A stretch of DNA of 40,164 bases from an uncultured Porphyromonadaceae bacterium. Lineage in GTDB: Bacteria > Bacteroidota > Bacteroidia > Bacteroidales > Muribaculaceae. A program made the translations under genes and the position numbers. The notes beneath the pieces were generated by a model, which was not told where the DNA came from, did not search any database, and worked only from the letters and a program-made list of their open reading frames with translations. This document shows positions 1-32,684 of the stretch, one piece after another (position 1 is the first letter of the stretch; the number at the start of each line of letters is the position of its first letter). Location: NCBI GenBank assembly GCA_947175495.1, contig CAMWNB010000021.1, positions 1-40,164 on the forward strand. The letters are read 5' to 3'.

Positions 1-76
1 GGAAAGCCATGGGATTGTGGCTCTCTACGCCTTCGTACTTGATTTTACCGATTGAGGGAAAATATTCTTTTGCCAT
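1..76 (-). CDS. xylA: Xylose isomerase, N-terminal fragment (cut by window edge)
   Basis: The first 25 codons are present, beginning MAKEYFPSIGKIKYEG and continuing to a NPMAF motif. This matches the start of bacterial xylose isomerases, which convert D-xylose to D-xylulose in the cytoplasm. The ATG at 76 lies 45 bp after the xylB stop, on the same strand, so it is the last visible gene of the minus-strand xylan operon. The rest lies outside the window, so catalytic residues cannot be checked. The call rests on the N-terminal match and on the xylB neighbour. Confidence 0.85.
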   Translation of the reverse strand, partial: MAKEYFPSIGKIKYEGVESHNPMAF

Positions 77-121
77 TGTATAAAGAATTAGTTTATTGAT
101 ATTTCTTACAATTATTTCGTA

Positions 122-1600: not shown

Positions 1601-1624
1601 TGCAATGTTGTGTTTTGGTTGATA

Positions 1625-4563: not shown

Positions 4564-4609
4564 ATCGCCAAAGTTATAAAATTATTTTTTATTTCTAAAT
4601 TTATTTTTT

Positions 4610-5722
4610 CTATTTCACAGCATGGTACTCCGCGAGTTTTTTCAAGAAGGGCTTCATACGGTAGCTGCGGTCGAAGAGCAGCGGATACTCGCGGCGGGGC
4701 GTAGGCCAGCCGTTTTTCCAGGAGTCGCCGTCGGACACGCCCCATGCAGTCACGCGCAGAATGTCGTCGGAATGGCGCAGGAACATGCTGAAGAAGGCAT
4801 CCATGCGGCTGTTCCATTCGGCTGCGACCTCGGCGGGCAGACCGTGGGGATAAGGATTAATCACCTTACCGAAACCTGCGGCATCGGCCACGTTGGCCGA
4901 ACGCGTCAGCGTGGGCAGCGCGCTCATGTCCCACTCCGTTATCATCACTTTGCATCCGGTGGCGGCAAATGCGTCCATCGACTGCTCGAACTCGTTGAAA
5001 TCGGGGTAGTCCATGCCCATGTGGGCCTGCATGCCGATGGCATCGATGCGCAGACCGCGCTTCTTCAGATCGTTTACGAGACGCACCACGGCATCGCGGC
5101 GTCCGGCCACATTCATGCCATAGTCATTGTAATAGAGTTCGGCATCGGGATCGGCTTCGTGGGCATACTGGAAAGCCAGCGGAATGAACTCTTCGCCGAG
5201 GATGTCGTAGAAAGGCGACTTGCGGTAGCTGCCGTTCTCGATTATCGCCTCGTTCACCACGTCCCAGCCTTTGATGCGGCCTTTGTAACGGCCGACTACG
5301 GTGTGTATATGGTCCCGCATGCGCTTCTTGAGCTCGTCGGCACTCACATAGTTGCCATTGTCGTCGTAGGGGAACCATGGCGCGAGCTGGCTGTGCCAGA
5401 TGAGGCAGTGGCCTATGATGACCATGCCGTTACGCTCGCCAAACTCGACGAAAGCGTCGGCATCGTCCCAGAAGTAGACATCCTTTTCGGGATGTATCTT
5501 TTCGCATTTCATCACGTTCTCGGCCACGATGCTGTTGAAGTGGTGGCGCACAACCTCGGCGCCTGCGGCATCGATTTCTTTGGCTTGATCGTCGTTTATG
5601 GCTACGCCCACACGGAATTTGTCTCCGAACACATCCTTGAGAGCGGGGTCGGCAACGGTGGGCACGGCGGCGCCTGCGCCGAGAGTGGCGAGGGCAAACA
5701 GGGTAGCAAGTGTAGTCTTCAT
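4610..5722 (-). CDS. GH10 endo-1,4-beta-xylanase, compact form
   Basis: A 370-residue secreted GH10 xylanase with only the catalytic barrel. The signal peptide ends around residue 19 (GAGAA-VPT) and has no lipobox Cys, so a soluble periplasmic enzyme is likely. The acid/base is Glu158 in WDVVNEAI and the nucleophile Glu263 in MITEWDMS, where the more usual ITELD has Trp in place of Leu. The substrate-binding GHCLIWHSQ motif lies at 104-112. No carbohydrate-binding module is present, unlike the second GH10 at 30282, which fits trimming of imported oligosaccharides rather than attack on insoluble xylan. It begins 4 bp after the symporter stop, so co-transcription is clear. Confidence 0.95.
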
Positions 5723-5726
5723 AATT

Positions 5727-7139
5727 TTATTTTCCTATGTGACGACGTTCTATTTCGGCATTGATTTCGTCAATGCGTTTGTCATCGAGTTCATAGCGCG
5801 AGATGATAAACATGGAGAGTAGAAGCAGAATGGCAGGAATCACAGCCACAAGCCAAAGGATGCCCTGCTGGGCGAAGGCCGACTGCGCGGCCGCGTCCTT
5901 GTTGAAGCCGACGAAAGCAAGCACCAGGCCCGGCACCACGCCGCCCATGGCCATACCCGCCTTGTAGAAGATGCCGGTGAGGGCGTTGACGATGCCGCTG
6001 ATCCGCTTACCGTGGGTGTACTCGCCGAAGCTGATTACCTCTGGTACGAGAGCCCACATATAGCCGGTGGCCACGATTACGCCGGTTGATTTGATGAACT
6101 GGGCCGCATAGACCATCCACATGTGGCTGCGAAGGGACTCGACTACGGATATGGCATAAAGCATGACCATTCCTATGATGGCGGTTGTCAGAAATATATA
6201 GAACATTCCCTTTTTGCCCACCTGCCGCTTAATCCATGGAATAAGAGGCATGAAGATGAAGGCCGGAATGGAACCGAGACCCATGAAAATGGAGAGTTCG
6301 GCCGCGGTGCCTCCGAGGTTGTAGTTCATATAGTACGCACCGGCGCTGTTGCTGATTGCCATCATGGCAAATGCAGTAATGAAGAAAAACGCAAGCACAC
6401 GCAGGGGGCGGTTGCGCACAAACTCAAGCCAAAGGTCGCTCACGCGCACGTTGTCGGCCTCGCTCTTGTCCATCACCACACGCTCGCGGCACTGCGAGAA
6501 GCAGAAAATGAGCAACGCCAGGCCTACGAGGCCATAGATGAGCATGGTCATGAACCAGGCATAGTCGTTCGACGAAAGATCCTGTGTCTCCGTGGGGTCA
6601 AATGCCTTTACGAGCAGTGGTATGCCCATGCCGACGGCAAGACCGCCCGCGTTGGCCATGAACATGCGGGTGGATGTCAGCACCGTAATCTCATGGGTGT
6701 CGCGCGTCAGCGATGCGTTGAGAGCGCCATAGGGCACATTGACGAGCGTATAGCACATCGACAGGCCTACATATGTGACATAAGCATACACCAGCGAACC
6801 ACTGAAGCCGTTCCAGAAGCAAAGTATGGCAAAACCGGTGAGTGGTATGCCGCCGAGAACGAGATATGCACGATACTTGCCGAGCGAGGGATTGTGTTTG
6901 TCGACAAAAGCGCCCACAATGGGATCCCACACTACGTCGACTATGCGGACAATAAGGAACATGACGGCTGCAACCGCAGGGTCGAGACCGAACACGTTGG
7001 TATAGAAAAACAGCAGATACATGCTGATTGTCTGATAAATCAGATTCTGGGCAAGGTCGCCCGAGCCGAAGCCTATCCGCTGCAGCCAGCCGAGTTTGTA
7101 GAAACCTTTGCTTTCGGCTTTGTTGAGAGTGTCGTTCAT
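5727..7139 (-). CDS. GPH-family sugar:cation symporter (xylose/xyloside uptake)
   Basis: A 470-residue integral inner-membrane protein with about 12 hydrophobic segments. The N-terminal half carries [15 protein letters not shown] and [18 protein letters not shown], the signature of the glycoside-pentoside-hexuronide (MelB/XynT-like) symporters. It should bring xylose or short xylo-oligosaccharides from periplasm to cytoplasm using a cation gradient; the substrate is inferred from its place between the GH10 xylanase (4 bp downstream) and the acetylesterase (12 bp upstream). The start [22 protein letters not shown] is typical for the family. Together with the cytoplasmic GH43, xylA and xylB it completes the inner part of the pathway. 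Confidence 0.88.
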
Positions 7140-7151
7140 GGTATGGTCAAG

Positions 7152-8792
7152 TTACTTTTTTGCAGGTAGTGTGGTCAGCACCGCGTCGGCAACGCGCTTG
7201 CCAAGGGTTTTCTTGTCGAGAGGATGGATGTCGTTCCACTCGCCGAGGTCGCTGTTGCGGATGAGCGTGGCTCTGGGTGTTTCTTCGGTCGCTTTGGCCT
7301 GCATGCGGCGCATCTCTGCCCATGCGTTGCGGCCGCCGGTGTCGCTTTTGTGCAGGAAGTCGGCCAGTTCCACCACGTAGAAAGGCAGCATATCATCGCC
7401 CAGCAGCGTGCGCCACTCGGCCATCATTGTCTTGAGTTTGGCAGCGTATTCGCGGCGGTTGCCCACGTTCGACTCGCCTTGATACCACACCGCGCCAGCG
7501 AAGTTCACCCCTTGCAGCGGGGCTATCATGGCGTCGTGAAGCACCACGGGAGTGTATTGGAAGAACATCATGCCGGGGCCGGCAGGCATCTGCGCACCCG
7601 TGCGGTGCTTCCACAGTCCTTCGAGAGAGGTTTCGCTGCCGTCGGCGTAGATGAGTTTATAGGGTTTGTCGAGCACGAACTGCGGGCGGCCGCCACCACT
7701 GATGCAGCGTACCGTCACCACATTGTCGCCTTCGTGCAGCACGCCGGCAGGTACAGTGTAGATGCGGGGAGGGTACTGATAGCCAACGGTGCCTACGAAT
7801 GTGCCGTTGACAAAGGCTGAGTCGGCGCCCTCGAAGCAACCCAGGCGCAGCGTAGCAGCACCTGCGGCCTGCCCGGCGCTTACCGACACATGGCGGCGCA
7901 ACCAATGCGAGCCATTGAGGTTGGAACCATTGGCGGGATTCTGCCCCCATGCGCTTTCAAGCAGGTCGACCTCGGGCCAGTCGCTGTCGTCAAGAGCCGG
8001 GTCGCACCATTGCATTCCTCCCTGACGGCCGGGGTCGGAAGCAAACAGCACACCGTTCCATCGGGCATAATTCTCACCTTCAAGACGCTTGATGCGCTCG
8101 CGATAACCATCGTCCTCATACACTTTTTTCTTTGCAATGTCGGCAGGCCACGGAGCCAGGCTCTCCTCGTTCATCCATGCCTCCACGGGCGTGCCGCCCC
8201 AGCTGGCGTTGACTATGCCGACAGGCACTCCTGTGGCCTCGTTCAGTGCCTTGGCGAAAAAATAGCCGAGGGCGGAAAACGCCATCACATCGGGTTGCGC
8301 GCATTCGCGCCACGCCGAAGCGGGCGTGTCGGAGAGCGGGCCGTGGAACGCAGTGGTCTGCGGCACCTTGTACTCGCGTATCTGCGGGTTGCTGTAGGCT
8401 GCTATTTCGTCGGCAAACATGTCGGTGACACGCCGCACGGGCAGCTCCATATTGGACTGACCGGAGCAGAGGAACACATCGCCGCTGAGCACATCTTTCA
8501 ATGTAATGTCATTGATGGTGATTGAGTATGGACCTCCGGCCTTGAGCGCAGGAAGTTCAAGCATCCATCGGCCTGCACTGTCGGCCGTCACTGTCACTGC
8601 CTTGGCCTTGCGGGCATCGCTTTTTGCCGTGACACTCTCGCCCGGATCGGCAGTGCCCCAGAGCCGCACGGGCTCGCCACGTTGCACTACCATGCCGTCG
8701 GAGAGCACTTGTGGCAGCGACACACGGGCATCGGCGCCGGATGCGCCGAGCAACAGCGTGGCCGCGGAGAATATATATGCTATGCTTTTCAT
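7152..8792 (-). CDS. SGNH acetylxylan esterase (sialate O-acetylesterase-like)
   Basis: A 546-residue secreted esterase expected to remove acetyl groups from xylan backbones or oligosaccharides. SGNH-type features are the nucleophile Ser113 in LCSGQSNMEL, the WYQGESN block, and a C-terminal Asp521/His523 in NDIHP. Between them lies an inserted beta-sandwich resembling the GH2-type sugar-binding domain (WLRRHVSV, FVNGTFVG, GDNVVTVRC). The same architecture is found in proteins annotated as sialate O-acetylesterases and in CE6-type acetylxylan esterases; the xylan context favours the latter. A signal peptide ends near residue 22 (GADA-RVS), with no lipobox. Its ATG overlaps the GH35 stop by one base (TAATG). 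Confidence 0.87.
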   Translation of the reverse strand: MKSIAYIFSAATLLLGASGADARVSLPQVLSDGMVVQRGEPVRLWGTADPGESVTAKSDARKAKAVTVTADSAGRWMLELPALKAGGPYSITINDITLKDVLSGDVFLCSGQSNMELPVRRVTDMFADEIAAYSNPQIREYKVPQTTAFHGPLSDTPASAWRECAQPDVMAFSALGYFFAKALNEATGVPVGIVNASWGGTPVEAWMNEESLAPWPADIAKKKVYEDDGYRERIKRLEGENYARWNGVLFASDPGRQGGMQWCDPALDDSDWPEVDLLESAWGQNPANGSNLNGSHWLRRHVSVSAGQAAGAATLRLGCFEGADSAFVNGTFVGTVGYQYPPRIYTVPAGVLHEGDNVVTVRCISGGGRPQFVLDKPYKLIYADGSETSLEGLWKHRTGAQMPAGPGMMFFQYTPVVLHDAMIAPLQGVNFAGAVWYQGESNVGNRREYAAKLKTMMAEWRTLLGDDMLPFYVVELADFLHKSDTGGRNAWAEMRRMQAKATEETPRATLIRNSDLGEWNDIHPLDKKTLGKRVADAVLTTLPAKK

Positions 8793-10483
8793 TATCGGTA
8801 GTTATAGGTTTTTATATGCAGAATCTTGTTGTCGTCGACACTGATGCGCACATGGCGTCCCTGGTGCGTCTCATCGCCATTGAAAGTGCGCACGCGGCTG
8901 AAACTGCCGTCGGCAGCGACTGCCACTTCCTCCACCGTGGCCAGACCTACGCGGGCGGCGGACGTCGGCCCTGCATCCTCAGAGCGGTCGGCTCCGGCGT
9001 TGAGAAATCCGTCCTCGCCGAGATTGGCAGCAGCGCGGCCTTCGCTTACATCCTCGAATTTAGCCACTACGCCCGTGCCGGCCAGAATGTATTCGCCGGG
9101 GGCGAGGCGAATGAGTACGGCGCCGGTCTGTGGCCACGGCGAACCGTTCTTGGCCCGCGGGTCCCACGGCAGGGTAAAGTAGTGCGACAGAGTGATGCGA
9201 GTGCGGCCATCAGTGATTATTGTCTCGGGCTTCTCTGCGCTCAGCAGCACACCGTCCATGGCGTCGCTGCCTTGATAGCGGGCAAGCAGCGGCGTCAGTT
9301 CGGCCAGCGTGGCGTATGCGGCCGCCATGGGGGCGCCGGGATCATCGTTGCCGTTTTCGATGGAGAACGGACTGATGCCTATGGCATCGTGATGACCCAG
9401 CACATAATAGGCCTGCGCACCGTTTTCGTCGCCACGCTTCACCTCGGGGATAAACAGTGGATTATCCGGAAGGGCGTATTGCGCCACCCAATCCTCGAAG
9501 CCGCTGTCGTAGATGTCGGGCGAAAGCATGTCGACACTCGGAGCTGCGGCATGCCATATGTCCTTGAGATGGGCCAGCGGGCCGGCCGACGGGTATTCGC
9601 CGGGGCGGCGCCCACGGCTGTTGAGCGCTGCGTTCACATACAGTGGCAGTGCGCAGATGCTACGAGCCTCGCGCGCGAGCTGTTCAACGTAGGAAGCATA
9701 GTTCCAGGCCATGAAATATTCGTCGGTGTAGCGGTCGTTGCCGAACACTTCTGCCCACGAGCCGGATTTGCGCTCGCCATGCTGCTTCCATTTCCCGGCC
9801 AGAGCAGGGTGCAGATTCTTTTTGTTTGACGCGAGATACTTCATGAGCGCCGGCGGCACTCCTTTGGCATATTCCGCATCGGCAGCCTTGGAGTGGTCAC
9901 GGGCATCCTCGAGCATGCCTATCTCGTTTTCAATCTGCACCATTATCACCGTGTTGTCTTTGTCGTAATCAGTCACATGGCGCAACCATCTGCCAAAAGC
10001 AGCGCGGTCGGCTTCCAGCACTTCGGACGAGAATGCCGATGCAATCTCCAGCGGCTTGCCGGCGGCTGTGCGGGAGCGGGGAAAACGCTTTGTGTCGGCT
10101 TTGAACCATTCGGGAGCATAGCAGCTCATGGAATTCTTCCACGCGCCGAACCAAAGAAACACCACTTTGAGGCCATTGCGGCGCGCCTCATCAATCACCT
10201 TGTCTGTAAGGGCAAAATCAAATTGTCCCTCATGCGGCTCGGTGAGCTCCCAATAAGCAGGCACAAGCACAGTGTTGAGATTCATGCGCTTGAGCTTCGG
10301 GAAGATAGCCTCGATGTCGGCATCGCATGTGGCGGAAGAATTGCCAAGCTCGCCGCCGAGTATCACAAACGGCTGCCCGTCAACACTCAGCCGCGCTGCC
10401 GGCCCTCTTCCTTCGAGGCGTGTGCCGCCGGATGCTGCAAGGACAGCTGCCGCGGCTATGATTGTGGCTAAGATTCGTTTCAT
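8792..10483 (-). CDS. GH35-like beta-galactosidase (DUF5597 type)
   Basis: A 563-residue secreted TIM-barrel glycosidase and first gene of the minus-strand operon. GH35-type residues are the acid/base Glu187 in VQIENEIG and the probable nucleophile Glu347 in LFIPEVKRG. The N-terminal portion (VILGGELGNSSATCDADI, then VLVPAYWELTEPHEGQFDF) is characteristic of the Bacteroidetes GH35 group with a C-terminal DUF5597-like beta domain, here roughly residues 400-563. Such genes recur in xylan loci, where they may remove galactose (or another sugar) from side chains; the true substrate is not evident from sequence. The signal peptide ends near residue 18-20. The HTCS-type promoter module lies directly upstream. 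Confidence 0.83.
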   Translation of the reverse strand: MKRILATIIAAAAVLAASGGTRLEGRGPAARLSVDGQPFVILGGELGNSSATCDADIEAIFPKLKRMNLNTVLVPAYWELTEPHEGQFDFALTDKVIDEARRNGLKVVFLWFGAWKNSMSCYAPEWFKADTKRFPRSRTAAGKPLEIASAFSSEVLEADRAAFGRWLRHVTDYDKDNTVIMVQIENEIGMLEDARDHSKAADAEYAKGVPPALMKYLASNKKNLHPALAGKWKQHGERKSGSWAEVFGNDRYTDEYFMAWNYASYVEQLAREARSICALPLYVNAALNSRGRRPGEYPSAGPLAHLKDIWHAAAPSVDMLSPDIYDSGFEDWVAQYALPDNPLFIPEVKRGDENGAQAYYVLGHHDAIGISPFSIENGNDDPGAPMAAAYATLAELTPLLARYQGSDAMDGVLLSAEKPETIITDGRTRITLSHYFTLPWDPRAKNGSPWPQTGAVLIRLAPGEYILAGTGVVAKFEDVSEGRAAANLGEDGFLNAGADRSEDAGPTSAARVGLATVEEVAVAADGSFSRVRTFNGDETHQGRHVRISVDDNKILHIKTYNYR

Positions 10484-10501: not shown

Positions 10502-10569
10502 GCAAATTTACTCTTTCTAATGCTAAAACCAATCGGCCGATGTAACCAATTTCACTCAGCGTGTAACAT
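10502..10569 (-). promoter_or_regulatory. HTCS-type promoter module of the minus-strand GH35-xylA operon
   Basis: Read on the minus strand: ATGTTACA (10569-10562), a second GTTAC (10546-10542) 21 bp after the first GTTAC, then 31 bp to the -7 box TAAATTTGC (10510-10502). The position expected for TTTG (-33) reads GATT, so the promoter should depend on an activator. The distal repeat lies inside the last codons of the GH115 gene (codons for V, T and R before its TGA). The same geometry occurs at 13135-13202 and 17400-17467. Transcription should start about 4-6 bp past the box, near 10497. Confidence 0.75.
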
Positions 10570-13108
10570 CCGCCTTTCCATAGGGCGTCTCGTCCATGAA
10601 AAGATACGAAGGTTCATAGCCGCCGAAATCCAATATTATCTTTTCAAAAACAATGCCCGGAGCCATCGGCTGGAGAGTGAGCATGTGTTCATTACCGCTG
10701 CCCAAAGGCAGACGCACCACTTTCTCGACCACCCGACGGGCTACTGTGGGATAGAATTTCGTGTAGATATTTTCTGGCGACTCGTTCAGATCGGAGTTGA
10801 AGTTCACCACAGCCGGCTCGCAGCCGTCGAGCGCGACCCGGTAGGTGTGGCCTCCGATGTGCAGGAAGTCGAGCGTCGACTTCACCACCACATGCACATC
10901 CACGGAGTCCACTCCCGCCTCGGGTGCTATGATTTTGTATGTAAGGGATGCACCATCGGTTGTCTCCGTATATGGCATCAGCGCAACTCCGCCGAGAGTG
11001 CGGCCCATGTCGGGAATAACGGTCCACTTTGTGCCGGCGGCTGCATCGGCCGCATAGAAATGCTCAGCCTCAATGACAGCCACCCCTTTGGCCGCCTGCG
11101 ACGCGTAGCCGCCCGAGGCACGATCTGTCGTTTCCACGCGATGCAACTCGGGCAGTGTGTCGGCCGGGAAGTTGTCGTTCCATGAAGTGTAGCCTATGTG
11201 TTTCTGCGTCATCATGCCGCGCCATTTGCCGCCTGCAGTTTTATTGTTGTATGCGTCGGCAAGTTCGGCGTCGCGACGGAAACAGCGTTCGGCACGGTCG
11301 GCCCAATCGTTGGCCACGGGGTCGCCGGCCGCACTGAGCTTCAGATTCATAGCCTGTGCATAGTACATCTCATAGAGGTTGGACATCGCCTGCACCGGAA
11401 ACAGCACGAGTTCGAAGAAAGCGTCGCGCGCCTCCTCGGGCAGCTCCATATAAAGGCGTAGAGCCTCAGCCTCGAGGCGGGCGTATTCATCAGCCACGCG
11501 GCGCCATTCGCCGTTGTTGATGTTGTAGGTGGAAGCGTCGAGCATTTCCGCTGTCACGCGTCCGTTGTATTTACTATAAAGATTGAGTATGCGGGCAGCT
11601 TCCGCACCATGTTTTTCTCCGAAGATTCCATTACAGAACTCCACGGAATGCTCCATGAAATTGTCGGCATTGTAACGCGTGGGGTTCCAGGCCATGTCAA
11701 GGAAAAGAGTGATGGGATACTCCATGGGCTTGAGGTCGCCCACGTTAAGAATCCACAAACGGTCCACTCCATAGTCGTAGGTAAGCCGCAACTGCTCCCA
11801 CATGCCCTGTATCGGCGTCATGTTAAGCCATTTGCTGTTGCGGGGCGCACCGACGTAGTCTACATGGTAGTACATGCCCCACCCTCCCGGATGCTTGCGC
11901 TCCTTGGCATCGGGCAGACGGCGCACATTGCCCCAGTTGTCGTCGCACACAAGCATTATCACATCGTCGGGAACGCGGAGCCCCTTGTCATAATAGTCCA
12001 GCACCTCCTTGTAAAGCGCCCACACCTGTGGTGTTTCCTTGGCCTTGCGGCCCGTTTCTTCAGCTATGATTCTGCGCTGGTTGGAGATGATTTTCTCAAG
12101 CAGGGCCACATCAGCATCCTCGCTCATGGCCTCATCGCCATCGCCGCGCATGCCTATGGTCACCACGTCCTCAGTGTCCTTGGCTCGCCGTATGCCCTCG
12201 CGGAAAAATCCGTCGATCATTTGCTGATTGCTTGCATAATTCCACTTGCCGTACTCCTTGCGTTTGCGCGCCCACTCCTGATGGTTGCGGGCCATAGGCT
12301 CGTGGTGGGAAGTGCCCATTATCACGCCCATGGCATCGGCCGTCGCACTGTTTTCGGGGTCGTCGGCATAGAACGACCACATCCACATAGCCGGCCACAT
12401 GAAGTTGCCGCGCAGGCGCAGAATGAGTTCGAAAACACGGCCATAGAAACGATGGTCGCCGTAGTCGGTGCCGTAGGTATTCTTTACCCACGAACTCAAG
12501 CAGGGTGCCTCATCGTTAAGAAATATGCCACGATACTGCACAGCGGGTTCGCCGGCCGTATAGACACCACGCTTTATCGAGGCGTTGTCGCGATGAGCCA
12601 CGGGCGCGTCGGCCCAGTCGTACCAAGGCGACACTCCGAGTTGTTCCGACAGTTCGTATATGCCATAGACAGCGCCACGGCGATCGCTGCCGGCCACCAC
12701 CAAAGCCTCTTCGACACCCGGAGCGGGATTCTGCACAAACGAAATCACATATTTTTCGCGCTTGCCTTTCAACGCGGCCACATCGACTTTCCCCGCTTTG
12801 GCAAGCGCTCTCAGCGTGGGGCCATCGAAAGTGCCGGCCATTATCACTCGCTTCCCGGTGGGACTGTCCGACACGACTGCCTCGACACCGCCTACACGGC
12901 CAAAATCGGCTGCAAGATTGGCGGCGGCAATCCGCACTGCCGAATTCTCGGCATCTGCCACAACTATGGGAGTCGGTTCATTGTTTTCGATGAGAGTAAA
13001 GCGGTCGGCGGCAAGGTGGTCGCTGGTTATACCGCTATGGTCGATTGCCGTCGCAGCAAGCGAACAGATGCCGCAAATCGGCAAAAGGAATATGCGCAGT
13101 ATTTTCAT
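10556..13108 (-). CDS. GH115 alpha-glucuronidase
   Basis: An 850-residue secreted GH115 enzyme that removes (4-O-methyl)glucuronic acid from internal as well as terminal xylose residues of glucuronoxylan, complementing the GH67 enzyme. Recognised blocks include YGIYELSEQLGVSPWYDWAD, RGIFLNDEAPCLSSW, LRLRGNFMWPAMW and IGMRGDGDEAM, in the order usual for the family, followed by a C-terminal beta-sandwich region from about residue 690 (VIEAEHFYA). I choose the ATG at 13108 because it begins a signal peptide (MKILRIFLLPICGICSLAATA) and follows the promoter; an in-frame ATG at 13138 would lie at the predicted -7 box and before the transcript start. It is a single-gene unit transcribed away from the HTCS gene. 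Confidence 0.93.
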   Translation of the reverse strand: MKILRIFLLPICGICSLAATAIDHSGITSDHLAADRFTLIENNEPTPIVVADAENSAVRIAAANLAADFGRVGGVEAVVSDSPTGKRVIMAGTFDGPTLRALAKAGKVDVAALKGKREKYVISFVQNPAPGVEEALVVAGSDRRGAVYGIYELSEQLGVSPWYDWADAPVAHRDNASIKRGVYTAGEPAVQYRGIFLNDEAPCLSSWVKNTYGTDYGDHRFYGRVFELILRLRGNFMWPAMWMWSFYADDPENSATADAMGVIMGTSHHEPMARNHQEWARKRKEYGKWNYASNQQMIDGFFREGIRRAKDTEDVVTIGMRGDGDEAMSEDADVALLEKIISNQRRIIAEETGRKAKETPQVWALYKEVLDYYDKGLRVPDDVIMLVCDDNWGNVRRLPDAKERKHPGGWGMYYHVDYVGAPRNSKWLNMTPIQGMWEQLRLTYDYGVDRLWILNVGDLKPMEYPITLFLDMAWNPTRYNADNFMEHSVEFCNGIFGEKHGAEAARILNLYSKYNGRVTAEMLDASTYNINNGEWRRVADEYARLEAEALRLYMELPEEARDAFFELVLFPVQAMSNLYEMYYAQAMNLKLSAAGDPVANDWADRAERCFRRDAELADAYNNKTAGGKWRGMMTQKHIGYTSWNDNFPADTLPELHRVETTDRASGGYASQAAKGVAVIEAEHFYAADAAAGTKWTVIPDMGRTLGGVALMPYTETTDGASLTYKIIAPEAGVDSVDVHVVVKSTLDFLHIGGHTYRVALDGCEPAVVNFNSDLNESPENIYTKFYPTVARRVVEKVVRLPLGSGNEHMLTLQPMAPGIVFEKIILDFGGYEPSYLFMDETPYGKADVTR

Positions 13109-13134
13109 GGACAGATACGAAACTATATTTGTTT

Positions 13135-13202
13135 GCAAAGTTACAAATCACACGGCAAAGCGGCTTCGCGCGATGTAACGTTTATTTATACGAATGTAAC
13201 AT
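13135..13202 (-). promoter_or_regulatory. HTCS-type promoter module of GH115
   Basis: On the minus strand the module reads ATGTTACA (13202-13195), GTTAC (13179-13175), then after 31 bp the -7 box TAACTTTGC (13143-13135). The two GTTAC repeats start 21 bp apart, about two helical turns. No TTTG sits 20 bp before the -7 box (GAAG instead). This is a mirror copy of the module in front of the GH43-xus operon. The predicted transcript start is near 13130, about 22 bp before the chosen GH115 ATG. Confidence 0.75.
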
Positions 13203-13246
13203 TGTTAAATAACACTCATTAAATTAGCCTTTTTCGAAAGAAAAAT

Positions 13247-13286
13247 TTTGCAAGTTACATTTAAAAGATGTAATTTTGTGTTACAT
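13247..13286 (+). promoter_or_regulatory. Promoter of the HTCS gene with overlapping GTTACAT sites
   Basis: A complete Bacteroidetes promoter: TTTG (13247-13250), 20 bp, then TAATTTTGT (13271-13279). Because the -33 element is intact, expression is probably constitutive at a low level. GTTACAT lies between the two boxes (13254-13260) and again at the start site (13280-13286); the second forms an inverted pair with ATGTAA (13268-13273) that brackets the -7 box. The placement would suit autorepression by the HTCS, but the spacing (26 bp) differs from the 21 bp activator module. Confidence 0.65.
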
Positions 13287-13350
13287 TACAAACGATACCA
13301 TAACGAAAAACATCACCGGCCAGCCGGAGCCTTACGCCTACACGCCTGTC

Positions 13351-16300
13351 ATGAAAAGAACAACAGCACTCGCCTTGTTACTGTGCGCAGCAGCCATCAT
13401 GTGCCACGCACAGTCCACCCACCTGTTCAATACCGACCACGACCTCTCAAGCAGCCTTGTCAACCAACTGTACCAGAACCGCGACGGCATGATGTGGGTC
13501 TCGACTGAAGACGGACTCAACCGCTACGACGGCAACAAGTTCATAATCTACCGCAACATACCCGGCGACAGCACCTCTTTGTGCAACAACTTCGTAAAGT
13601 CGGTGTTCGAGGATGCCGACGGACGCCTCTTCGTGTGCACGCGCCGAGGACTTCAGCGCTACTATCCCGAGTCTGATTCTTTCGGACCGCGTTTCGTCGA
13701 CGCTGACGGAAGCACGTTCATGGCATCCGTCAACCAGATCGTGCGCCGCAACAACAATGAATACTGGATTATAGGCGACTCGCTGAAGACCTTCGCTCCA
13801 TCCGACGCGCCGACCACACGCCTTTGCGACATACGACCTCAGGGACAGATCATAAAAGACATACATTGCGCTGTGCTCGACAACGACGGCTACATCTGGC
13901 TGTCGAAAGATGAACAGGGATTGCTGCGGATTGCGCCGGACAATACATTCACCCGTTTCTTCGGAGCCAAAAACGATCCGGCCGTATCCTCCATGACCAT
14001 CGGTTCCGACGGCATCATGTATGCCGGCACCACATCGCATGGCCTCATCCGGTTCAATCGTGACACACAAGCGTTCGACTATCTCACAGGGAGTATCGGA
14101 AAAGAGGTGAAATGGGTGTTTGCCGACACCAACGGCGACATCGTACAGGCCATCGACGGCGGCGGCATCATGGTCTACACCCCCGCCACCGGCTCGAATA
14201 CCCACTTCCGTTTCGGCGACGGCAACTTCGTTTCCGAACGGCAGAAAGCCCATTGCGCCATGCGCGACGCCGACAAAAATCTCTGGATCGGCCTCTATCA
14301 GTTCGGCGTAGCCATGATTCCGACACAAGCCAACTCATTCGACTACATAGGCCACAAATCCATCAACCGCAACATAATAGGCAGCAACTGCGTATCGGCC
14401 ATAATGCGCGACCGCAACGGCACGTTGTGGGTGGGCGCCGACAACGATGGCATCTACACTATCGATGCCGCAGGAACATGCACATCCCATCTGTACAACA
14501 ACGACATAGCGGCACCGATGTGCCTGTTCGAAGACAGCCACAGCAACATCTGGGTGGGCACATATCTGCGCGGCGTAGGCATCGTCGACCGCCACACCGG
14601 AGCCATGCGGCGCATCGATGTCAGCGATGGCCCCAACCGACCGGGCAATGTGTGCTTCTCCATCACCGAGGACCGCGACCACAACGTATGGCTGGGAATG
14701 CTCAATTCCGGTCTTGTGAAATACGACCTCGCTACGGGAACCGCCATAACAGACTTTCGATGGCGCGAAAAAATCGACCCGTGGATCGCCTCGCTGTATT
14801 ATTCTCCAAAAACCAACTCTCTGTACATAGGCACTTATTCCGGCCTGCAGACCGTCAACAATGTGTCGCTTGCCGAACCAGTAATCACTAAAATCATCAG
14901 CGAGGACGTGGTCTACTCCATGGATGAGGGTCCAGACGGCACCATATGGCTGGCCACGACCAACGGAATCGTAAGCTATGTGCCGGCAACGGGCAAACAC
15001 CGCCGTTACACCACCGTCGACGGACTGCTGAGCAACACCGTCTACGCCATCCGCCACGACGGCAACCATGTATGGGCAAGTCTGAATTCCGGCCTGTCGC
15101 GCCTTGACCCGGAAAGCGGCACAATCGCCAACTTCATGCTCGACGACGGCCTGCAAGGCAACGAATTCTACAAAAGTTCCGCATTTAAGGACGCCGGCAC
15201 AGGCCGGATGTATTTCGGCGGCACAGGAGGCATCACCTGTTTCAATCCGCGCGACATAACTGCTCCCGGCCGCTCATGGACGCCACGCATAGCCGAGTTC
15301 CACGCCCACGGCAAACCGGTGCACAGCGACAAGCCAGTCTACGACACTTCCGAATTCCATCTGGGTGCATACGACAGTTCCTTTTCCGTGGAATTCAGCA
15401 CCAAAGAGCTGGGGCGCCCCGAATCGGTGCTTTTTGCCTACGCTATCGACGACAAGCCCTGGGAAACACTGCGCGCAGGCACCAACATCGTGAATCTGCA
15501 CAACCTCGGCGCAGGCAAACACAGTCTGAAATTCAAGACCATCGACAATCTTGCAGAGTCCGAGACTCGCACTGTCAGCATCTTCGTCGCAAGTCCATGG
15601 TACGCCACAGCCTGGGCCAAAGCGCTCTACGCCACATCGCTGCTGATGCTGCTATGGTGGATAGCACGCAGCTACGCCACCCGCATGCGCCACCGCGCCG
15701 AACTGCTCGAACTAACCCACACCGAACAGATAAACGAAGCACGCCTGCAATCATTCGTAAACATATCCCACGAGATACGCACGCCCATGTCGCTGGTGAT
15801 CAGTCCGCTTCAAAAACTGCTCGCCACCGACACCGACACCGGACGCCGACACGAGTACGGCCTCATATTGCGCAACGCCAAGCGCATCCTGCGCCTCATC
15901 GACGAACTCATGGACCTGCGCAAAATCGAGAAACGGCAAATGAGGCTGACACTCAGCCGCACGCCTCTCGTGCCCTTCATCAATGATCTTTGCGACACGT
16001 TTGCCCAGGTGACAGCCGGAAAGAAAATCACTCTCACTTTCGACTACGATTCCGACGACACCGCAGCCGACATCGACCGCGCCAACTTCGACAAGATACT
16101 GATGAACCTGCTGTCTAACGCCGTAAAATACACCCCGGAAGGCGGTCAAATCGCCATACGCCTCGCTGCCGACAGAACAAACGACACGGTGACAATTTCC
16201 GTGACCGACACGGGCATCGGCGTGCCCGATGCCGACAAGCAACGCATCTTTGACCGTTTCTACCAGGCCCACGGCAACAGCGCCGGAGGCACCGGCGTGG

Positions 16301-17331
16301 GACTGCACCTCACCTACCAGCTTGTGAGCCTGCACCGGGGCACAATCGCCGTGACCGACAATCCGGAAGGTCCCGGCACTTGCTTTGCCGTCACAATCCC
16401 TGCAGAAAGCAGCCAGGACTCCCCCGCCCGCGACATGACCGACGACGCATTCCCGGGCTCCCGTCCCGTGCGCCTCGGCATCCCTCTCAGCGACGCCAAA
16501 AGCCTGCTTGTGCCCGACCTCGACGAGCCGGTGGAAGAGCGCACCGGTGTGGCCGCAGCCCATGTGCTTATCGCAGAAGACGATGAAGAAATCCGCAACT
16601 ATCTTGCCCACGAACTGTCAGATAAATACAAGGTGACAACCTGCGCCAACGGACGCGAGGCCCTTGAATTAATCTTCCATCGCGCACCCGACCTCATCGT
16701 CAGCGACATAATGATGCCCGTGATGGATGGTCTTGAACTCACACGCACCATCAAGCAGAATATCAACCTCAACCACATCCCGGTGATTCTCGTGACAGCC
16801 ATGACGCGCGACGAGGACAACATCAGCGCTCTCGAGGCAGGGGCCGACGACTACGTCACAAAGCCGTTCAACATCGAAATCGTCAGATCCAAAATCGCCG
16901 GCGTGCTGTCGCGATATCGCCTCCTCAAGAACCGCTACAGCGGCAGCCAGGAACACGACGACAAGATAGACAAAATCGAGGTGGCCTCCAACGACGAAAA
17001 ACTCATGAACCGCATAATGTCCGTAATCAACAAGGAAATGGCTAATCCCGAACTCACCGTGGAGCAGCTTGCTTCCGATGTAGGTCTCAGCCGCGTTCAT
17101 CTCCACCGAAAACTAAAGGCACTCACCAACCAGTCGCCACGCGATTTCATCCGAAACACACGCCTGCGCCAGGCCGCGAGACTGCTGCGCGAAAAGGACC
17201 TGTCGGTGGCCGAAGTAGCCGACCTCACTGGTTTCAGCAACGCCGGCAGCTTTACCACTTCCTTCAAGCGTCTCTTCGGCGTGACGCCAAGCGAATACAG
17301 CGAAGCTAAAACCGAAGAAACCGCCAACTGA
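13351..17331 (+). CDS. Hybrid two-component system (HTCS) sensor/regulator of xylan use
   Basis: A 1326-residue one-protein two-component system spanning the inner membrane. Order: signal peptide (MKRTTALALLLCAAAIMCHA); a periplasmic sensor of two beta-propellers built from repeats such as DGMMWVSTEDGLNRYDG and GTLWVGADNDGIYTID; a Y_Y_Y domain; a membrane segment near 754-775; HisKA with His807 in NISHEIRTPMS; HATPase (NLLSNAVKYTPEGG, DTGIGVP, GGTGVGLHL); receiver with Asp1119 in SDIMMPVMDG; and a C-terminal AraC-type DNA-binding domain from about 1240. The ATG at 13351 is preferred over an in-frame ATG at 13276, which lies inside the predicted -7 box. It should sense a xylo-oligosaccharide and activate the flanking operons, like XynR of Prevotella. 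Confidence 0.95.
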   Translation: MKRTTALALLLCAAAIMCHAQSTHLFNTDHDLSSSLVNQLYQNRDGMMWVSTEDGLNRYDGNKFIIYRNIPGDSTSLCNNFVKSVFEDADGRLFVCTRRGLQRYYPESDSFGPRFVDADGSTFMASVNQIVRRNNNEYWIIGDSLKTFAPSDAPTTRLCDIRPQGQIIKDIHCAVLDNDGYIWLSKDEQGLLRIAPDNTFTRFFGAKNDPAVSSMTIGSDGIMYAGTTSHGLIRFNRDTQAFDYLTGSIGKEVKWVFADTNGDIVQAIDGGGIMVYTPATGSNTHFRFGDGNFVSERQKAHCAMRDADKNLWIGLYQFGVAMIPTQANSFDYIGHKSINRNIIGSNCVSAIMRDRNGTLWVGADNDGIYTIDAAGTCTSHLYNNDIAAPMCLFEDSHSNIWVGTYLRGVGIVDRHTGAMRRIDVSDGPNRPGNVCFSITEDRDHNVWLGMLNSGLVKYDLATGTAITDFRWREKIDPWIASLYYSPKTNSLYIGTYSGLQTVNNVSLAEPVITKIISEDVVYSMDEGPDGTIWLATTNGIVSYVPATGKHRRYTTVDGLLSNTVYAIRHDGNHVWASLNSGLSRLDPESGTIANFMLDDGLQGNEFYKSSAFKDAGTGRMYFGGTGGITCFNPRDITAPGRSWTPRIAEFHAHGKPVHSDKPVYDTSEFHLGAYDSSFSVEFSTKELGRPESVLFAYAIDDKPWETLRAGTNIVNLHNLGAGKHSLKFKTIDNLAESETRTVSIFVASPWYATAWAKALYATSLLMLLWWIARSYATRMRHRAELLELTHTEQINEARLQSFVNISHEIRTPMSLVISPLQKLLATDTDTGRRHEYGLILRNAKRILRLIDELMDLRKIEKRQMRLTLSRTPLVPFINDLCDTFAQVTAGKKITLTFDYDSDDTAADIDRANFDKILMNLLSNAVKYTPEGGQIAIRLAADRTNDTVTISVTDTGIGVPDADKQRIFDRFYQAHGNSAGGTGVGLHLTYQLVSLHRGTIAVTDNPEGPGTCFAVTIPAESSQDSPARDMTDDAFPGSRPVRLGIPLSDAKSLLVPDLDEPVEERTGVAAAHVLIAEDDEEIRNYLAHELSDKYKVTTCANGREALELIFHRAPDLIVSDIMMPVMDGLELTRTIKQNINLNHIPVILVTAMTRDEDNISALEAGADDYVTKPFNIEIVRSKIAGVLSRYRLLKNRYSGSQEHDDKIDKIEVASNDEKLMNRIMSVINKEMANPELTVEQLASDVGLSRVHLHRKLKALTNQSPRDFIRNTRLRQAARLLREKDLSVAEVADLTGFSNAGSFTTSFKRLFGVTPSEYSEAKTEETAN

Positions 17332-17349
17332 CTGATTATCAATCGCAGT

Positions 17350-17375
17350 GTTACGCCACGCGAAACATTTGTAAC
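17350..17375. repeat. Extra inverted GTTAC pair upstream of the GH43-xus promoter
   Basis: GTTAC at 17350-17354 and GTAAC at 17371-17375 (part of TGTAACAT 17370-17377) form an inverted pair with the same 16-bp gap as the direct repeats downstream. Together with the GTTAC copies at 17402 and 17423 the start positions are spaced 21, 31 and 21 bp, close to whole helical turns, so all four half-sites would face the same side of the DNA. This may be an upstream auxiliary operator; no promoter is seen for a minus-strand gene here. Confidence 0.45.
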
Positions 17376-17399
17376 ATAAATCTGCGACATTCGGCCCAC

Positions 17400-17467
17400 A
17401 TGTTACAACTACCTAAACTTGCGTTACGAAAAAGATATTAATTTTTGTTTCAACAGGCTAATTTTGC
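17400..17467 (+). promoter_or_regulatory. HTCS-type promoter module of the GH43-xus operon
   Basis: ATGTTACA (17400-17407), a second GTTAC (17423-17427) 21 bp after the first, then 31 bp to the -7 box TAATTTTGC (17459-17467). The position where TTTG would be expected at -33 reads ATAT. The predicted start near 17471 leaves a leader of about 38 nt before the GH43 ATG at 17509. The repeats would be centred at about -46 and -67, positions typical of activators contacting RNA polymerase. Confidence 0.78.
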
Positions 17468-17508: not shown

Positions 17509-19233
17509 ATGAGAAACGCCATTGCAATAGCCGCAACAGCAATCCTCGCCACAGCCTGCACGGCCACACACAAGAGTGCCGATCCCGTGCCCGGCACAGC
17601 TCTCTTCGAGAGTTTCAGCTACGAAGGAAACGACAGCATATATGCTGTCTGTCCGCTTGCGGACAGCGCGAGCTATCACAACCCCATCCTCCCGGGCTGG
17701 TATTCCGACCCCTCCCTGTGCACAAACGGAGAAGGCGACTATTTCCTGGTGACATCGACTTTCTGCTACTTCCCCGGCGTGCCCATCTTCCACAGCCGCG
17801 ACATGGTGAACTGGCGCCAGATCGGCCATGTGCTCAATCGCGAGAGCCAGCTTGAGAACTTCCCCGGACAGCACATCAGCGGCGGCATTTTCGCACCCGC
17901 AATCAGCTACAACCCCGCCAACAAAACATATTACATGATTACCACCAACGTTGGCGCGGGCAACTTCTTCGTAAAGACCACCGATCCTTTCTCGGGCGAA
18001 TGGAGCGATCCCATCTATCTGCCTGAAGTGCAGGGAATAGACCCCGCATTCTTCTTCGACGAGGACGGAAAGGGCTACATAGTCAACAACGACGACGCTC
18101 CCGACGGCAAACCGGAATACGCAGGCCACCGCACAGTGCGCGTCGTGGAATTCGACCCGGCCACCGACAAGTGTGTGGGCGAACGCAAAATTGTCGTCAA
18201 CAAGGGATGGCGTCCGCAGGACAAGCCCATCTGGTGCGAAGGCCCCCATATTTATAAAATCAACGGAGAGTACTATCTCATGACAGCCGAAGGAGGCACC
18301 GGCGACTGGCACAGCGAGGTTATATACCGCGGAAAGACGCCCTTCGGTCCCTATACCCCCTATGAGAATAATCCGATCCTTACCCAGCGCAACCTCGACC
18401 CCTCGCGCCCCAATCCCATCACATGCGCCGGCCATGCCGACCTGCTGCAGACTGCCGAAGGCGACTGGTGGGCAGTGTTCCTCGCATGCCGTCCCAACAA
18501 AGGCGGTTTCGAGAACCTCGGCCGCGAGACATTCATGCTGCCCGTCACCTGGACCGAAGACGGCTGGCCCATCATCAACCCCGACATGCAGCCCGTGGCC
18601 ATGACCGCACGCCGCGAAGGCGTGGCGCGCGACGACGCCAACCGCACATTCGGCAACTTCAAAGCCGAGGAGAGCTTTGACAGCACCAATCTCGCACAGA
18701 CCTGGATGACGCTGCGCACTCCTGCCACCGACCTCTACAGCCTCACCACCGTCCCCGGTCATCTCGCACTCGCGTGCGCGCCTGCAACAGCAGCCGAGAA
18801 AGGCACTCCCGCCTTCGTGGCTCGCCGCATCCAGCACCACACATTCACAGCCTCCACCCCCATGACATTCGTTCCCGACAGCGCATCTCAGGCAGCCGGC
18901 ATTCTCGTGTTCAAAGACGAGACGCACCAGTATTTTCTCGGCCGCGGCCTCGACGCACAGGGCAACGACATCGTGTTCGTAGACCGCACCAGTCCGGAAG
19001 GCTATGAGACAATCGGCAGCATTTCCATTGACCACTCGCTGCCCGCAGTGACCCTCCGCGTAAGCAGTCCCGACGGCCTCACCTACGACTTCGCCTGCTC
19101 CACCGACGGCGGCAAACAGTTCGACACCGTGGCCGAAGGAGTGGACGCCCGACACACCTCAACAGCGGCAGCCGGAGGATTCACCGGCACCACCGTGGGC
19201 CCGTACGCCACATCCATGCGCAATTCACATTAA
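17509..19233 (+). CDS. GH43 beta-xylosidase / arabinofuranosidase with C-terminal domain, lipoprotein
   Basis: A 574-residue GH43 enzyme and first gene of the plus-strand operon. The lipoprotein signal ends at Cys17 (ATAC); no acidic residues follow directly, so a periplasmic face is inferred. Catalytic residues are base Asp67 in GWYSDPSL, Asp178 in VQGIDPAFF and acid Glu244 in IWCEGPH, in the order usual for subfamily 12-type proteins. From about residue 370 a second beta-sandwich domain (GH43_C2-like) follows, which in relatives completes the active site. It likely removes arabinose or xylose from xylo-oligosaccharides, but the exact bond is not decidable here. The operon promoter module lies just before it; xusA follows after a 142-bp gap. 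Confidence 0.9.
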   Translation: MRNAIAIAATAILATACTATHKSADPVPGTALFESFSYEGNDSIYAVCPLADSASYHNPILPGWYSDPSLCTNGEGDYFLVTSTFCYFPGVPIFHSRDMVNWRQIGHVLNRESQLENFPGQHISGGIFAPAISYNPANKTYYMITTNVGAGNFFVKTTDPFSGEWSDPIYLPEVQGIDPAFFFDEDGKGYIVNNDDAPDGKPEYAGHRTVRVVEFDPATDKCVGERKIVVNKGWRPQDKPIWCEGPHIYKINGEYYLMTAEGGTGDWHSEVIYRGKTPFGPYTPYENNPILTQRNLDPSRPNPITCAGHADLLQTAEGDWWAVFLACRPNKGGFENLGRETFMLPVTWTEDGWPIINPDMQPVAMTARREGVARDDANRTFGNFKAEESFDSTNLAQTWMTLRTPATDLYSLTTVPGHLALACAPATAAEKGTPAFVARRIQHHTFTASTPMTFVPDSASQAAGILVFKDETHQYFLGRGLDAQGNDIVFVDRTSPEGYETIGSISIDHSLPAVTLRVSSPDGLTYDFACSTDGGKQFDTVAEGVDARHTSTAAAGGFTGTTVGPYATSMRNSH

Positions 19234-19375: not shown

Positions 19376-22300
19376 ATGGAAAATGTAAAGAAATTATTTC
19401 GATGCATTTCAGTGCTGACACTGATTCTGCTGTGCAGCGCCTTCTCGGCCCACGCAGAAAACGTGTCCGGTACTGTGGTCGACGATACGGGCGAACCCCT
19501 TATCGGCGTCAGCGTAATGCTCAAAGGCAAGAACGCCGGCGTGACCACCGACATTGACGGCCACTACACCATCCAGGTGCCCGACGTCAAGACCGCAACG
19601 CTCACATTCAGCTATGTGGGCATGGAAGCACAAGAAATCAAACTGAACGGCCGCAAGACCTTAGACGTAACACTTAAGCCCAACAGCAACTCTCTCGAAG
19701 AAGTGGTGGTAGTGGGCTACGGCCAGCAGAAAAAAGCATCTATAGTAGGCGCCATCACCCAGACCTCGGGCGCTGTGCTTGAGCGCGCTGCCGGCATCCA
19801 CGACATCGGCGCCGCCCTCACCGGCAACATGCCCGGTGTCGTCACCACCCAGTCGAGCGGTATGCCCGGCGACGAAGAGCCCCAGATTACCATCCGCGGT
19901 GCCTCTTCCTGGAACAGCTCGTCGCCTCTCGTGCTTGTCGACGGCATCGAGCGTCCCATGAGCTCTGTCGACATCAGCTCCGTCGAGTCCATCTCGGCTC
20001 TTAAAGATGCATCGGCCACTGCCGTCTATGGTGTGAAAGGCGCCAACGGCGTCATCCTCATCACCACCAAGCGCGGCACCGAAGGCAAAGCCAAGGTCGA
20101 CGTCGGCTTCACCGCCACCATGAAGACCATCTCACGCCTTCCCGACAAGTACGACTCCTACGACGCCCTCATGCTCCACAACCGTGTGATTGAGCACGAA
20201 CTCGCGCTCAGCCCTGCATCGTGGAGCTACCTCGTGCCCCAGGCCCGCATCAACAAATACCGCTACCGCACCTCTATCGAGGACATCGAGCGCTACCCCA
20301 ACATCGACTGGAAGGACGAACTCTTCAAGGACAATGCCATGAGCTACAACGCCTATGTAAACATCGCAGGCGGCACTAAATTCGTGCGCTACTACACGGC
20401 AGTGGACTTCGTGGATGAAGGCGACCTCTTCCGCAGCTTCGACTCCGACCGCGGTTTCAACACAGGCTTTGCCTACAACCGTCTGAACGTGCGCTCCAAC
20501 CTCGACTTCTCCATCACCCCCACCACCACCTTCAAGGTGAACGTGGCAGGCTCCAACTCGTCGCGCAAAACCCCGTTCAACAGCTCGGGCATGTACACCG
20601 TCGACTGGGGTGCAGCTCAGATTTGGGGTTCGGTCTACAGCACCGCACCCGACATCTTCATGCCGCAGTACAGCGACGGCGCCATCGGCTACTACCCGCT
20701 GAACGCCGCTCAGACCACCAACTCCGTGGGCAACATCCTCTCGGCCGGCACCATGCGCATGACCACCACCCGCATCAACACAGACTTCGTGCTTGAGCAG
20801 GACCTGAGCATGATCACAAAGGGTCTTAACTTCCGCGGCATGATTTCGTGGGACAACCTCTTCGTAGAGAGCAAACGCGGCATCGAGATTCCTTCAGGCG
20901 CCGCACGCAAGCGCAAATGGATCGATCCCGCCACCGGCGCCGTGCAGGAAGAACCCTACGACGGCCTCACCCACTTTGACTATCACACCGACCCCAGTCT
21001 CAACCAGCACTCGGGCGAAATCCAGAACGGCAATACCCAGCGCCACGTCAACTATCAGCTGCAACTCAACTGGGCACGCCAGTTCGACGGCAAGCACGAC
21101 GTTGGCGCCACAGGCGTATGGACCCGCCAGGAAGACGCCTACGGCAGTGAAATCCCCCGCTACCGCGAAGACTGGGTGTTCCGTACCACCTACAGCTTCG
21201 ACGGACGCTACATGATTGAATACAACGGTGCCTACAACGGCTCCGAGAAATTCGGCAAGGGCTACCGTTTCGGTTTCTTCAACTCCGGTGCCATCGGCTG
21301 GCGCATCAGTGGCGAACCTTTCTTCAAGGCTCTCCTGCCCTACGTCAACAACCTGAAAATCCGCGCCAGCTATGGTGAAATCGGTGACGACACCGGCGAC
21401 CGCTGGCTCTACATGGACCAGTGGGCCTTTGGCGGCAACGCAATTGTCGACGGCTCCGCACGTCCCGGCAACACCAGCCCCTACTCCTTCTACTACCAGA
21501 CCATGATGGGCAACCCCGACGCACACTGGGAGAAGGTGACCAAGATGAACCTCGGCATCGACTACGGCTTCCTCAACGACATGTTCGCGGGCTCCGTGGA
21601 AATCTTCAAGGACAAGCGAAAAGACATCCTCGTAAAGGGCTCCGACCGCTCCGTGCCCAGCTACTTCGGCGGCAGCGCTCCCACGGCCAACCTCGGCCGT
21701 GCCGAGAGCCAGGGTTTTGAAGTTGAACTGCGCTTCAACTATCCCATCAACCGCGACATGCGCGTATGGGCCAACCTCAACATGACGCACGCCAAGAACA
21801 AGATCATCGACCGCGACGATCCCCAGCTCAAGCCCGACTACCTCAAGCAGGCCGGCTACGCCATCGGGCAGTACCGCTCACATATCGACGCAGGCTTCCT
21901 CAACAACTACGACATGATCTACGGCGCGCCCGCGTTCAGTGAGCTCAACGACCAGCGTCTCCCGGGCGACTACTACATCGTCGACTTCAACGGCGACGGC
22001 GTTGTCGACGCCGACGACCAGGCTCCCTACGGCTACACCGAAACTCCGCAGAACACCTATAACGCCACCCTCGGCTTCGAGTGGAAGGGCTTCAGCGTGT
22101 TCGCGCAGTTCTACGGCGTCACCGGCGTAAGCCGCACCGTCGACCTGCGCAGCTTCGAGAACCAGATGAACAATGCCTACGACCTGCACCGCGACTGGTG
22201 GGCCGCCGACGGCTCGGGCGACATGCTATATCCCCGCTGGCTCTCCACTCCCAACAGCAACGCCTACGGCACACAATGGATTTACGACGGCTCCTACATC

Positions 22301-22507: not shown

Positions 22508-22511
22508 CATC

Positions 22512-24476: not shown

Positions 24477-24521
24477 TCCTCTTTCCTAATTTCTAATCAT
24501 CAGAATATCACATTTCAATAT

Positions 24522-27374: not shown

Positions 27375-27389
27375 ACCTCGCTAAGCACT

Positions 27390-29168: not shown

Positions 29169-29219
29169 TATTCAGCGCCTCTCTCCGTTATTTCTTTCAA
29201 CCATCAATATCACAAAGAC

Positions 29220-30263: not shown

Positions 30264-30281
30264 CGCCTTATTTCTGACACA

Positions 30282-32511: not shown

Positions 32512-32545
32512 AAAGCGCGGCATCCGCACGGGTGCCGCGCTTTTT
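32512..32545 (+). terminator. Rho-independent terminator of the xus operon
   Basis: A perfect 11-bp stem (AAAGCGCGGCA at 32512-32522 with TGCCGCGCTTT at 32533-32543) with a 10-base loop runs into a T-tract. It stands 22 bp after the xyn10C stop and ends the roughly 15-kb transcript starting near 17471. Confidence 0.9.
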
Positions 32546-32602
32546 CTGTCGCCTCACCAACGGGGTAGCTGAAATAACCATGTTGAAATTTATTGTTAAA
32601 AA

Positions 32603-32635
32603 TTTGCACAAACGCCTATTTATCATTATCTTTGC
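32603..32635 (+). promoter_or_regulatory. Promoter of the LruC-like lipoprotein gene
   Basis: TTTG (32603-32606), 20 bp, TATCTTTGC (32627-32635): a full match to the Bacteroidetes housekeeping promoter. It comes after the xus terminator and has no GTTAC module, so this gene seems outside the xylan regulon. The predicted start near 32640 also rules out in-frame ATGs upstream of it, supporting the ATG at 32685. Confidence 0.75.
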
Positions 32636-32684
32636 CTCCGGAACTTTACCTTCTATTATTTTATCTTGCTTTTATCAGACCATA

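Follow-up and report, generated by a model that had tools for sequence, protein, structure and literature searches.

A spaced GTTAC repeat joined to a -7 box at xylan promoters of an uncultured Porphyromonadaceae bacterium: a probable operator-promoter module of a hybrid two-component system

Can a single sensor bring several xylan operons under common control, and can the means of that control be read in their promoters? The question is raised by contig CAMWNB010000021.1 of an uncultured Porphyromonadaceae bacterium of the gut (genome of 2.34 Mb, labelled G000), of which a stretch of 40,164 nucleotides is here called the window. The gene at 13351-17331 (+) encodes a protein of 1326 amino acids in which a Reg_prop propeller sensor, HisKA, HATPase_c and Response_reg domains and an AraC-type helix-turn-helix (HTH_18) are united in a single polypeptide, as the definition of a hybrid two-component system (HTCS) has it. 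An earlier note, made from the sequence alone, had proposed that promoters around this gene share a direct-repeat site for the AraC-type domain, rigidly spaced to the promoter. As judged from sequence comparison, the shared module is very probably the operator-promoter of this HTCS.

Anatomy and occurrence of the module

The pattern GTTACN{16}GTTACN{31}TANNTTTGC matches the window at exactly three places, 17402-17467 (+), 13200-13135 (-) and 10567-10502 (-), and matched nothing in 100 dinucleotide shuffles of the window. All three modules open with ATGTTACA and hold gaps of 16 and 31 base pairs (bp). The module before the GH43-xus operon (17400-17467, +) has its distal ATGTTACA at 17400-17407, its proximal GTTAC at 17423-17427 and the -7 box TAATTTTGC at 17459-17467. 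The same elements of the module before GH115 (13135-13202, -) lie at 13202-13195, 13179-13175 and 13143-13135, with the -7 box reading TAACTTTGC, and those of the module before the GH35...xylB-xylA operon (10502-10569, -) at 10569-10562, 10546-10542 and 10510-10502, with the box TAAATTTGC. The earlier note had placed the modules and their identical distal eight bases correctly to the base, and family searches agree with the units it named around the HTCS gene: GH115 (10556-13108, -; target 1), a GH35/DUF5597 gene (8792-10483, -) that opens target operon 2, and a GH43 gene (17509-19233, +) that opens target operon 3. It was also right that the sequence between the boxes differs. The spacers of the three promoters agree at only 11-19 of 47 positions, so that the promoters do not look like copies of one another. 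The GH35 module reaches with its distal half-site (10559-10569) into the final codons of GH115 (Asp-Val-Thr), and an accessory GTTAC...GTAAC pair (17350-17375, +) precedes the GH43 module by 52 bp, the left half of the pair kept in both congeners and the right half in one.

The -7 boxes are of the sigma-ABfr type, for which a -7 consensus TAnnTTTG and a TTTG near -33 have been described (PMC7366714). TAnnTTTG is present in all three modules as well as in the promoter of the HTCS gene, and none of the three modules has a TTTG 19-21 bp before the box. The HTCS promoter (13247-13278, +) reads TTTG-N20-TAATTTTG, with canonical -33 and -7 elements; TTTG-N20-TAAnTTTG, with the same 20-bp gap, recurs in both congeners (L025, L026). 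GTTAC words stand within its spacer and at the presumed start (13254 and 13280; stretch 13254-13284), and similar words are found in L025 and L026.

When the whole genome was searched with the pattern lacking its final C and allowing up to two mismatches, four matches were obtained, the three of the window and one on contig C33 with one mismatch, while the reversed-pattern control gave none. The exact module and the HTCS sensor were both sought in a survey of 297 genomes of the same family. The module occurred at 14 sites in seven of the 297 genomes, against one match of the reversed control, and the sensor was matched in 18 genomes at E<=1e-90 and in 12 at E<=1e-150. All seven module genomes are among these 12 with the closest sensor (7/12 versus 0/285 of the others; Fisher p=2e-11), and the association is similar at the looser threshold (7/18 versus 0/279; p=8e-10). 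Of the 14 exact sites in the seven genomes, 13 lie at xylan-type loci.

Among congeners, L026 has three exact modules, and L025 has two, with a third, at GH115, whose second gap is 32 bp. In seven orthologous promoter pairs, taken from gap-31 modules and so without the L025 GH115 promoter, the boxes are alike at 16 of 16 positions in every pair, while the spacers are alike at 14-16 of 47 (GH35), 19 of 47 (GH115) and 23-28 of 47 (GH43); the promoters compared had been found through the pattern itself, which favours the boxes. An additional TATTAAnnnTTGTTT is retained at the GH43 promoter.

Spacing, promoter register and a Bacteroides xylanisolvens mutant

The spacing recurs at related HTCS loci. 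TGTWAC words stood 21 bp apart 53 times, whereas other spacings averaged 2.5 (57 of 80 HTCS loci). From the second GTWAC of such pairs to a TAnnTTTG within 80 bp, the distance was 31 bp in 21 of 47 cases, 52 bp (31+21) in six, 32 bp in three and 70 bp in three. This count covers the window and 56 of 79 further loci, the other 23 being mostly remote sensor matches; all 79 loci entered a search with up to two mismatches, which gave 31 module matches versus four of the reversed control. The two gaps, which the earlier note took to be invariant, are indeed 16 and 31 bp in all three window modules, but the longer one is not wholly fixed: GH115 in L025 and one L027 promoter have 32 bp in place of 31, as do two B. 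xylanisolvens promoters when a degenerate half-site is allowed. Across 25 distinct exact sites, the first gap prefers A at +11 (68%), A at +13 (80%) and T at +18 (84%), which would fit a two-helix AraC-type domain that also contacts a second groove. This list holds exact 31-bp sites only and is thus no proof of the register, which rests on the spacing count in the 57 loci.

The pairs are concentrated at HTCSs with an SRVH-type first recognition helix, whose loci hold 53 pairs versus a control-spacing mean of 3.8, with 26 of 53 loci having one, against 5 pairs versus 1.1 and 5 of 35 loci for non-SRVH HTCSs; nine duplicate loci and 23 without a DNA-binding-domain match stood outside this comparison. 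In two other Bacteroidales, a GTWAC module with the 21/31-bp spacing stands before the HTCS gene itself (L047:9831; L066:9884, where the gene is a sensor-like open reading frame, ORF), which suggests autoactivation there. A general rule for all HTCSs was rejected: averaged over positions, the self-similarity of 129 TAnnTTTG boxes from 28 B. xylanisolvens HTCS loci showed no clean signal (best z 3.3, at lag 34). Promoter by promoter, at least 10 of 14 matches at lag 21 were seen in 19 of the 129, against 2-9 at the other lags tested, and at least 11 in nine, against 0-3; of the 34 lag-21 promoters with at least nine matches, ten start the second half 35-39 bp before the box. As a general HTCS signal, this excess is suggestive only.

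Published mutant data allow a comparison with gene expression. Despres et al. 2016 disrupted the HTCS gene BXY_29350 in B. xylanisolvens XB1A by insertion and reported strong repression of six tested genes of polysaccharide utilization locus (PUL) 43; in PUL 70, four of the five genes tested (BXY_46590-46620) responded in the same way and susC did not (PMC4855328). The text names the BXY_46620 product as a GH2, and reverse-transcription PCR joined BXY_29170 and BXY_29180 (PMC4855328). The HTCS found in this species is 41% identical to the window HTCS over 1345 aligned positions and has the same first recognition helix, SRVHLHRKLK; it would be BXY_29350, with locus tags matched to ORFs by order, strand and span. 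GTWAC 21-bp pairs precede large ORFs 1, 2 and 3 of a 33-kb plus-strand cluster that fits PUL 43, and a four-gene operon (SASA-like, MFS, GH10, GH67) that fits BXY_46620-46590; further pairs lie before the HTCS gene and the next ORF. In total, seven pairs were counted in 85.8 kb of these regions, and the 27 further HTCS loci of this genome had four in 537 kb. No pair was found near the PUL 70 susC, which is weak evidence because 1791 of the 3300 upstream bases read N. The 21-bp repeats before operons that lose expression agree with the mutant data and support the assignment of the module to the HTCS. At the PUL 43 and PUL 70 promoters (L189, L193), arrays of 3-4 half-sites at 20-21 bp steps are seen, some of them degenerate.

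A fourth copy before an arabinose operon

The match on contig C33 (G000:C33:13877-15151; L004, L024; one mismatch) precedes genes for an aldose epimerase (araM), an SSF symporter, L-ribulose-5-phosphate 4-epimerase, L-arabinose isomerase and an FGGY kinase, in the order araM-araP-araD-araA-kinase. In Bacteroides, the arabinose operon has been described as araMPRDAB under the NrtR-family repressor AraR (PMC4666351). The order here is the same apart from araR; unlike the described AraR control, neither araR nor an AraR-like box is present, and an HTCS-type module stands in the promoter.

Within the genus, a close araM was found in 17 of 49 genomes, that of the window included, at 18 places, of which 17 have upstream sequence. 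The module precedes araM with one mismatch each in G000 and in G254, the two promoters being alike at 14 of 16 box and 19 of 47 spacer positions. G300 has GTTAC-N17-GATAC-N31-TAATTTTG at araM, three mismatches from the plain pattern, and the remaining 14 places differ from it by at least four. In G115 and G234, araR lies inside the arabinose operon and araM has a GTGTN7ACAC box no more than 80 bp away; one further such box lies 292 bp from araM in G032. Neither araR in the operon nor the box at araM was found in G000, G254 or G300. A search for the NrtR winged-helix domain gave nothing in G000, G254, G266 and G300; 14 of the 49 genomes have one.

These observations tip the balance slightly towards a rewiring, in which the arabinose operon would have left AraR, losing gene and box, and come under the xylan HTCS by way of a new 21/31-bp operator, within a wider rule of HTCS half-site pairs set in one 31-32 bp register to the -7 box. 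Three points weigh against the takeover: no HTCS was found in G300, a genome 71% complete that was searched without a positive control; G266 has the HTCS and no close araM; and most other araM promoters show neither the module nor an AraR-like box. If the rewiring is true, a periplasmic xylan sensor would turn on cytoplasmic arabinose catabolism ahead of the arrival of arabinose.

How the module may act, and what it may mean

In the mechanism that we infer, the HTCS would sense xylan oligosaccharides in the periplasm, whereupon its receiver domain would be phosphorylated and its AraC-type DNA-binding domains freed. Two of these domains would then sit in tandem on the same face of the DNA, one per GTWAC half-site, 21 bp or two turns apart. 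Because the promoter-proximal half-site ends 31-32 bp before the -7 box, the domain on it would adjoin the -33 region and contact RNA polymerase. Such an arrangement, with tandem half-sites two turns apart and the inner one just upstream of -33, is what a class II AraC-type activator would need, on the model of E. coli AraC, whose tandem half-sites at araI1-I2 also lie 21 bp apart, with the proximal of the two adjoining the polymerase site. AraC is a cytoplasmic ligand sensor acting at a sigma-70 promoter, unlike the membrane HTCS and the Bacteroidota -7 box proposed here. The three target promoters have no TTTG at the -33 position and should depend on the activator, and the HTCS is probably made constitutively from its complete TTTG-N20-TAAnTTTG promoter. 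The fourth copy would bring araM-araP-araD-araA-kinase into the same regulon, which suggests that fibre breakdown and sugar use answer to a single sensor.

Phosphorylation-dependent binding to target promoters is known for the response-regulator fragments of two HTCSs (PMC11253607). The S/CHIP motif in the receiver alpha3-beta4 loop reads NHIP in the window HTCS and three relatives and QHIP in L020. With S or C found at the motif in 84% of HTCSs (PMC11253607), not in all, NHIP is a deviation and does not exclude the protein from the class; the receiver may restrain the DNA-binding domain differently in this clade.

Target operon 2 would continue, as a single transcript judged by shared strand and short gaps, from GH35 through genes for a SASA esterase, an MFS_2 transporter, GH10, GH43, GH67, an xylB-like FGGY kinase and the start of xylA (1-8792, -). 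The xylose isomerase is cut at the contig edge after its first 25 residues (76-1, -), and in the congener G254 a full xylA-like ORF follows xylB. Target operon 3, of xus type, runs on with SusC, SusD, a SusC-like protein, SusD, a DUF5627 protein and GH10 (19376-32489, +); its second SusC has no Pfam match in the region and was named by similarity to relatives. A large ORF after the xus genes (32532-34850) has only a weak DUF4114 match.

What speaks for the module as an HTCS operator-promoter is the co-occurrence in the 297 genomes, the boxes kept more than the spacers, the peaks at 21 and 31 bp, the SRVH enrichment and the mutant data. The earlier proposal of a direct-repeat site of the AraC domain is thereby supported, with its rigid spacing relaxed to 31 or 32 bp. 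Several results weigh against this assignment. Among the 12 genomes whose HTCS is closest, five have no exact module, and 27 of the 53 SRVH-type loci hold no GTWAC pair. In 13 stretches around HTCSs and their neighbours, a search that allowed two mismatches to the GTWAC form of the module gave one match versus two of the reversed control; the one is a perfect module that precedes a GH97 gene of G057, at 12 kb from the HTCS. Perfect GTWAC stands 31 bp before the -7 box in only one of six B. xylanisolvens promoters, four more reaching 31 or 32 bp with a degenerate last half-site (GTAGC, GTATC, GAAAC, GAATC), and the HTCS promoter of that species shows no -7 box by the TAnnTTTG pattern. TTG occurs 19-21 bp before the box in 8 of 25 module promoters versus 19 of 129 unselected boxes. 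That module promoters are depleted of the -33 box was considered and rejected as a statistic (TTTG in 4 of 25 versus 10 of 129). Module sites also exist beyond the HTCS locus, which softens the earlier proposal. The 14th exact site, in G130, was rejected as a regulon member and is probably due to chance; it precedes a sigma-54-activator-like gene near ORFs that, to judge by their translations, may be recombinases, and its surroundings read as a mobile element. Elsewhere in G130 (L140:18583, -), a GH10-like gene close to the HTCS of that genome is preceded, at a distance of about 1.7 kb, by two GTTAC words with the 21-bp spacing and with no -7 box at 31 bp.

That the module is bound by another regulator, such as a stand-alone AraC-type protein, a second HTCS or an activator of some other kind, with the HTCS gene a mere neighbour, is improbable. 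It could draw on the SRVH-type loci devoid of the word, on the location of the arabinose copy on another contig than the HTCS, on the variant module of G300, in which no HTCS was found despite it (the genome being 71% complete), and on the other propeller protein of the window's genome (C1, L132), whose DNA-binding domain is also SRVH and 46% identical. Yet the HTCS co-occurs in seven of seven module genomes, the three sites flank its gene, the B. xylanisolvens mutant fits the sites, and the 20 kb around L132 hold no GTWAC pair. A module that serves as a repressor operator, or repeats that both activate and repress, must be thought very unlikely. The GTTAC-like words within the HTCS promoter are placed as autorepression would require and may serve it, but at the three target promoters 31 bp separate the sites from the -7 box downstream, which puts them outside the core promoter, and a mutant of the homologous HTCS loses expression. 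Least credible by far is chance or copied promoter DNA, with the three modules as recent duplicates of one promoter, since only the shared boxes speak for duplication, against spacers so dissimilar and against the orthologues that the window promoters have in congeners.

For the HTCS as operator-binding regulator, then, how much is new? The kind of operator is already known, as direct repeats of 21 bp on average were predicted for 16 B. thetaiotaomicron HTCSs by Ravcheev et al. 2013 (PMC3878776). At the locus operons two sites repeat in the same orientation some 21 bp apart, which is how an HTCS operator is defined there, and the predicted operators likewise stand at own-locus and some distant operons (PMC3878776). 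Unlike here, the three pathways described for B. thetaiotaomicron include no xylan HTCS, and the text gives no fixed -7 distance; its logos and additional files, and RegPrecise, lie outside this comparison and may list the word (PMC3878776). BXY_29350 of PUL 43 likewise governs xylan operons together with a GH67/GH10 operon at a distance, in a paper whose main text does not contain the term 'binding site' (PMC4855328). The GTWAC 21-bp repeats seen before the operons that fit these differ in often having 3-4 half-sites with the nearest ones degenerate. No report of the xylan-HTCS word, of the -7 distance or of an AraR-to-HTCS change was found in the literature searched, subscription papers, figures, supplements and RegPrecise aside. 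As far as these searches show, the word, the promoter register and the fourth genomic copy before araM-araP-araD-araA-kinase are new.

HTCSs rank among the main switches by which gut Bacteroidota control glycan use, and operators are known for few of these systems. With word, spacing and register in hand for a xylan HTCS, its regulon would become readable from sequence and the geometry of activation testable, and an apparent takeover of arabinose catabolism from AraR by an HTCS comes into view.

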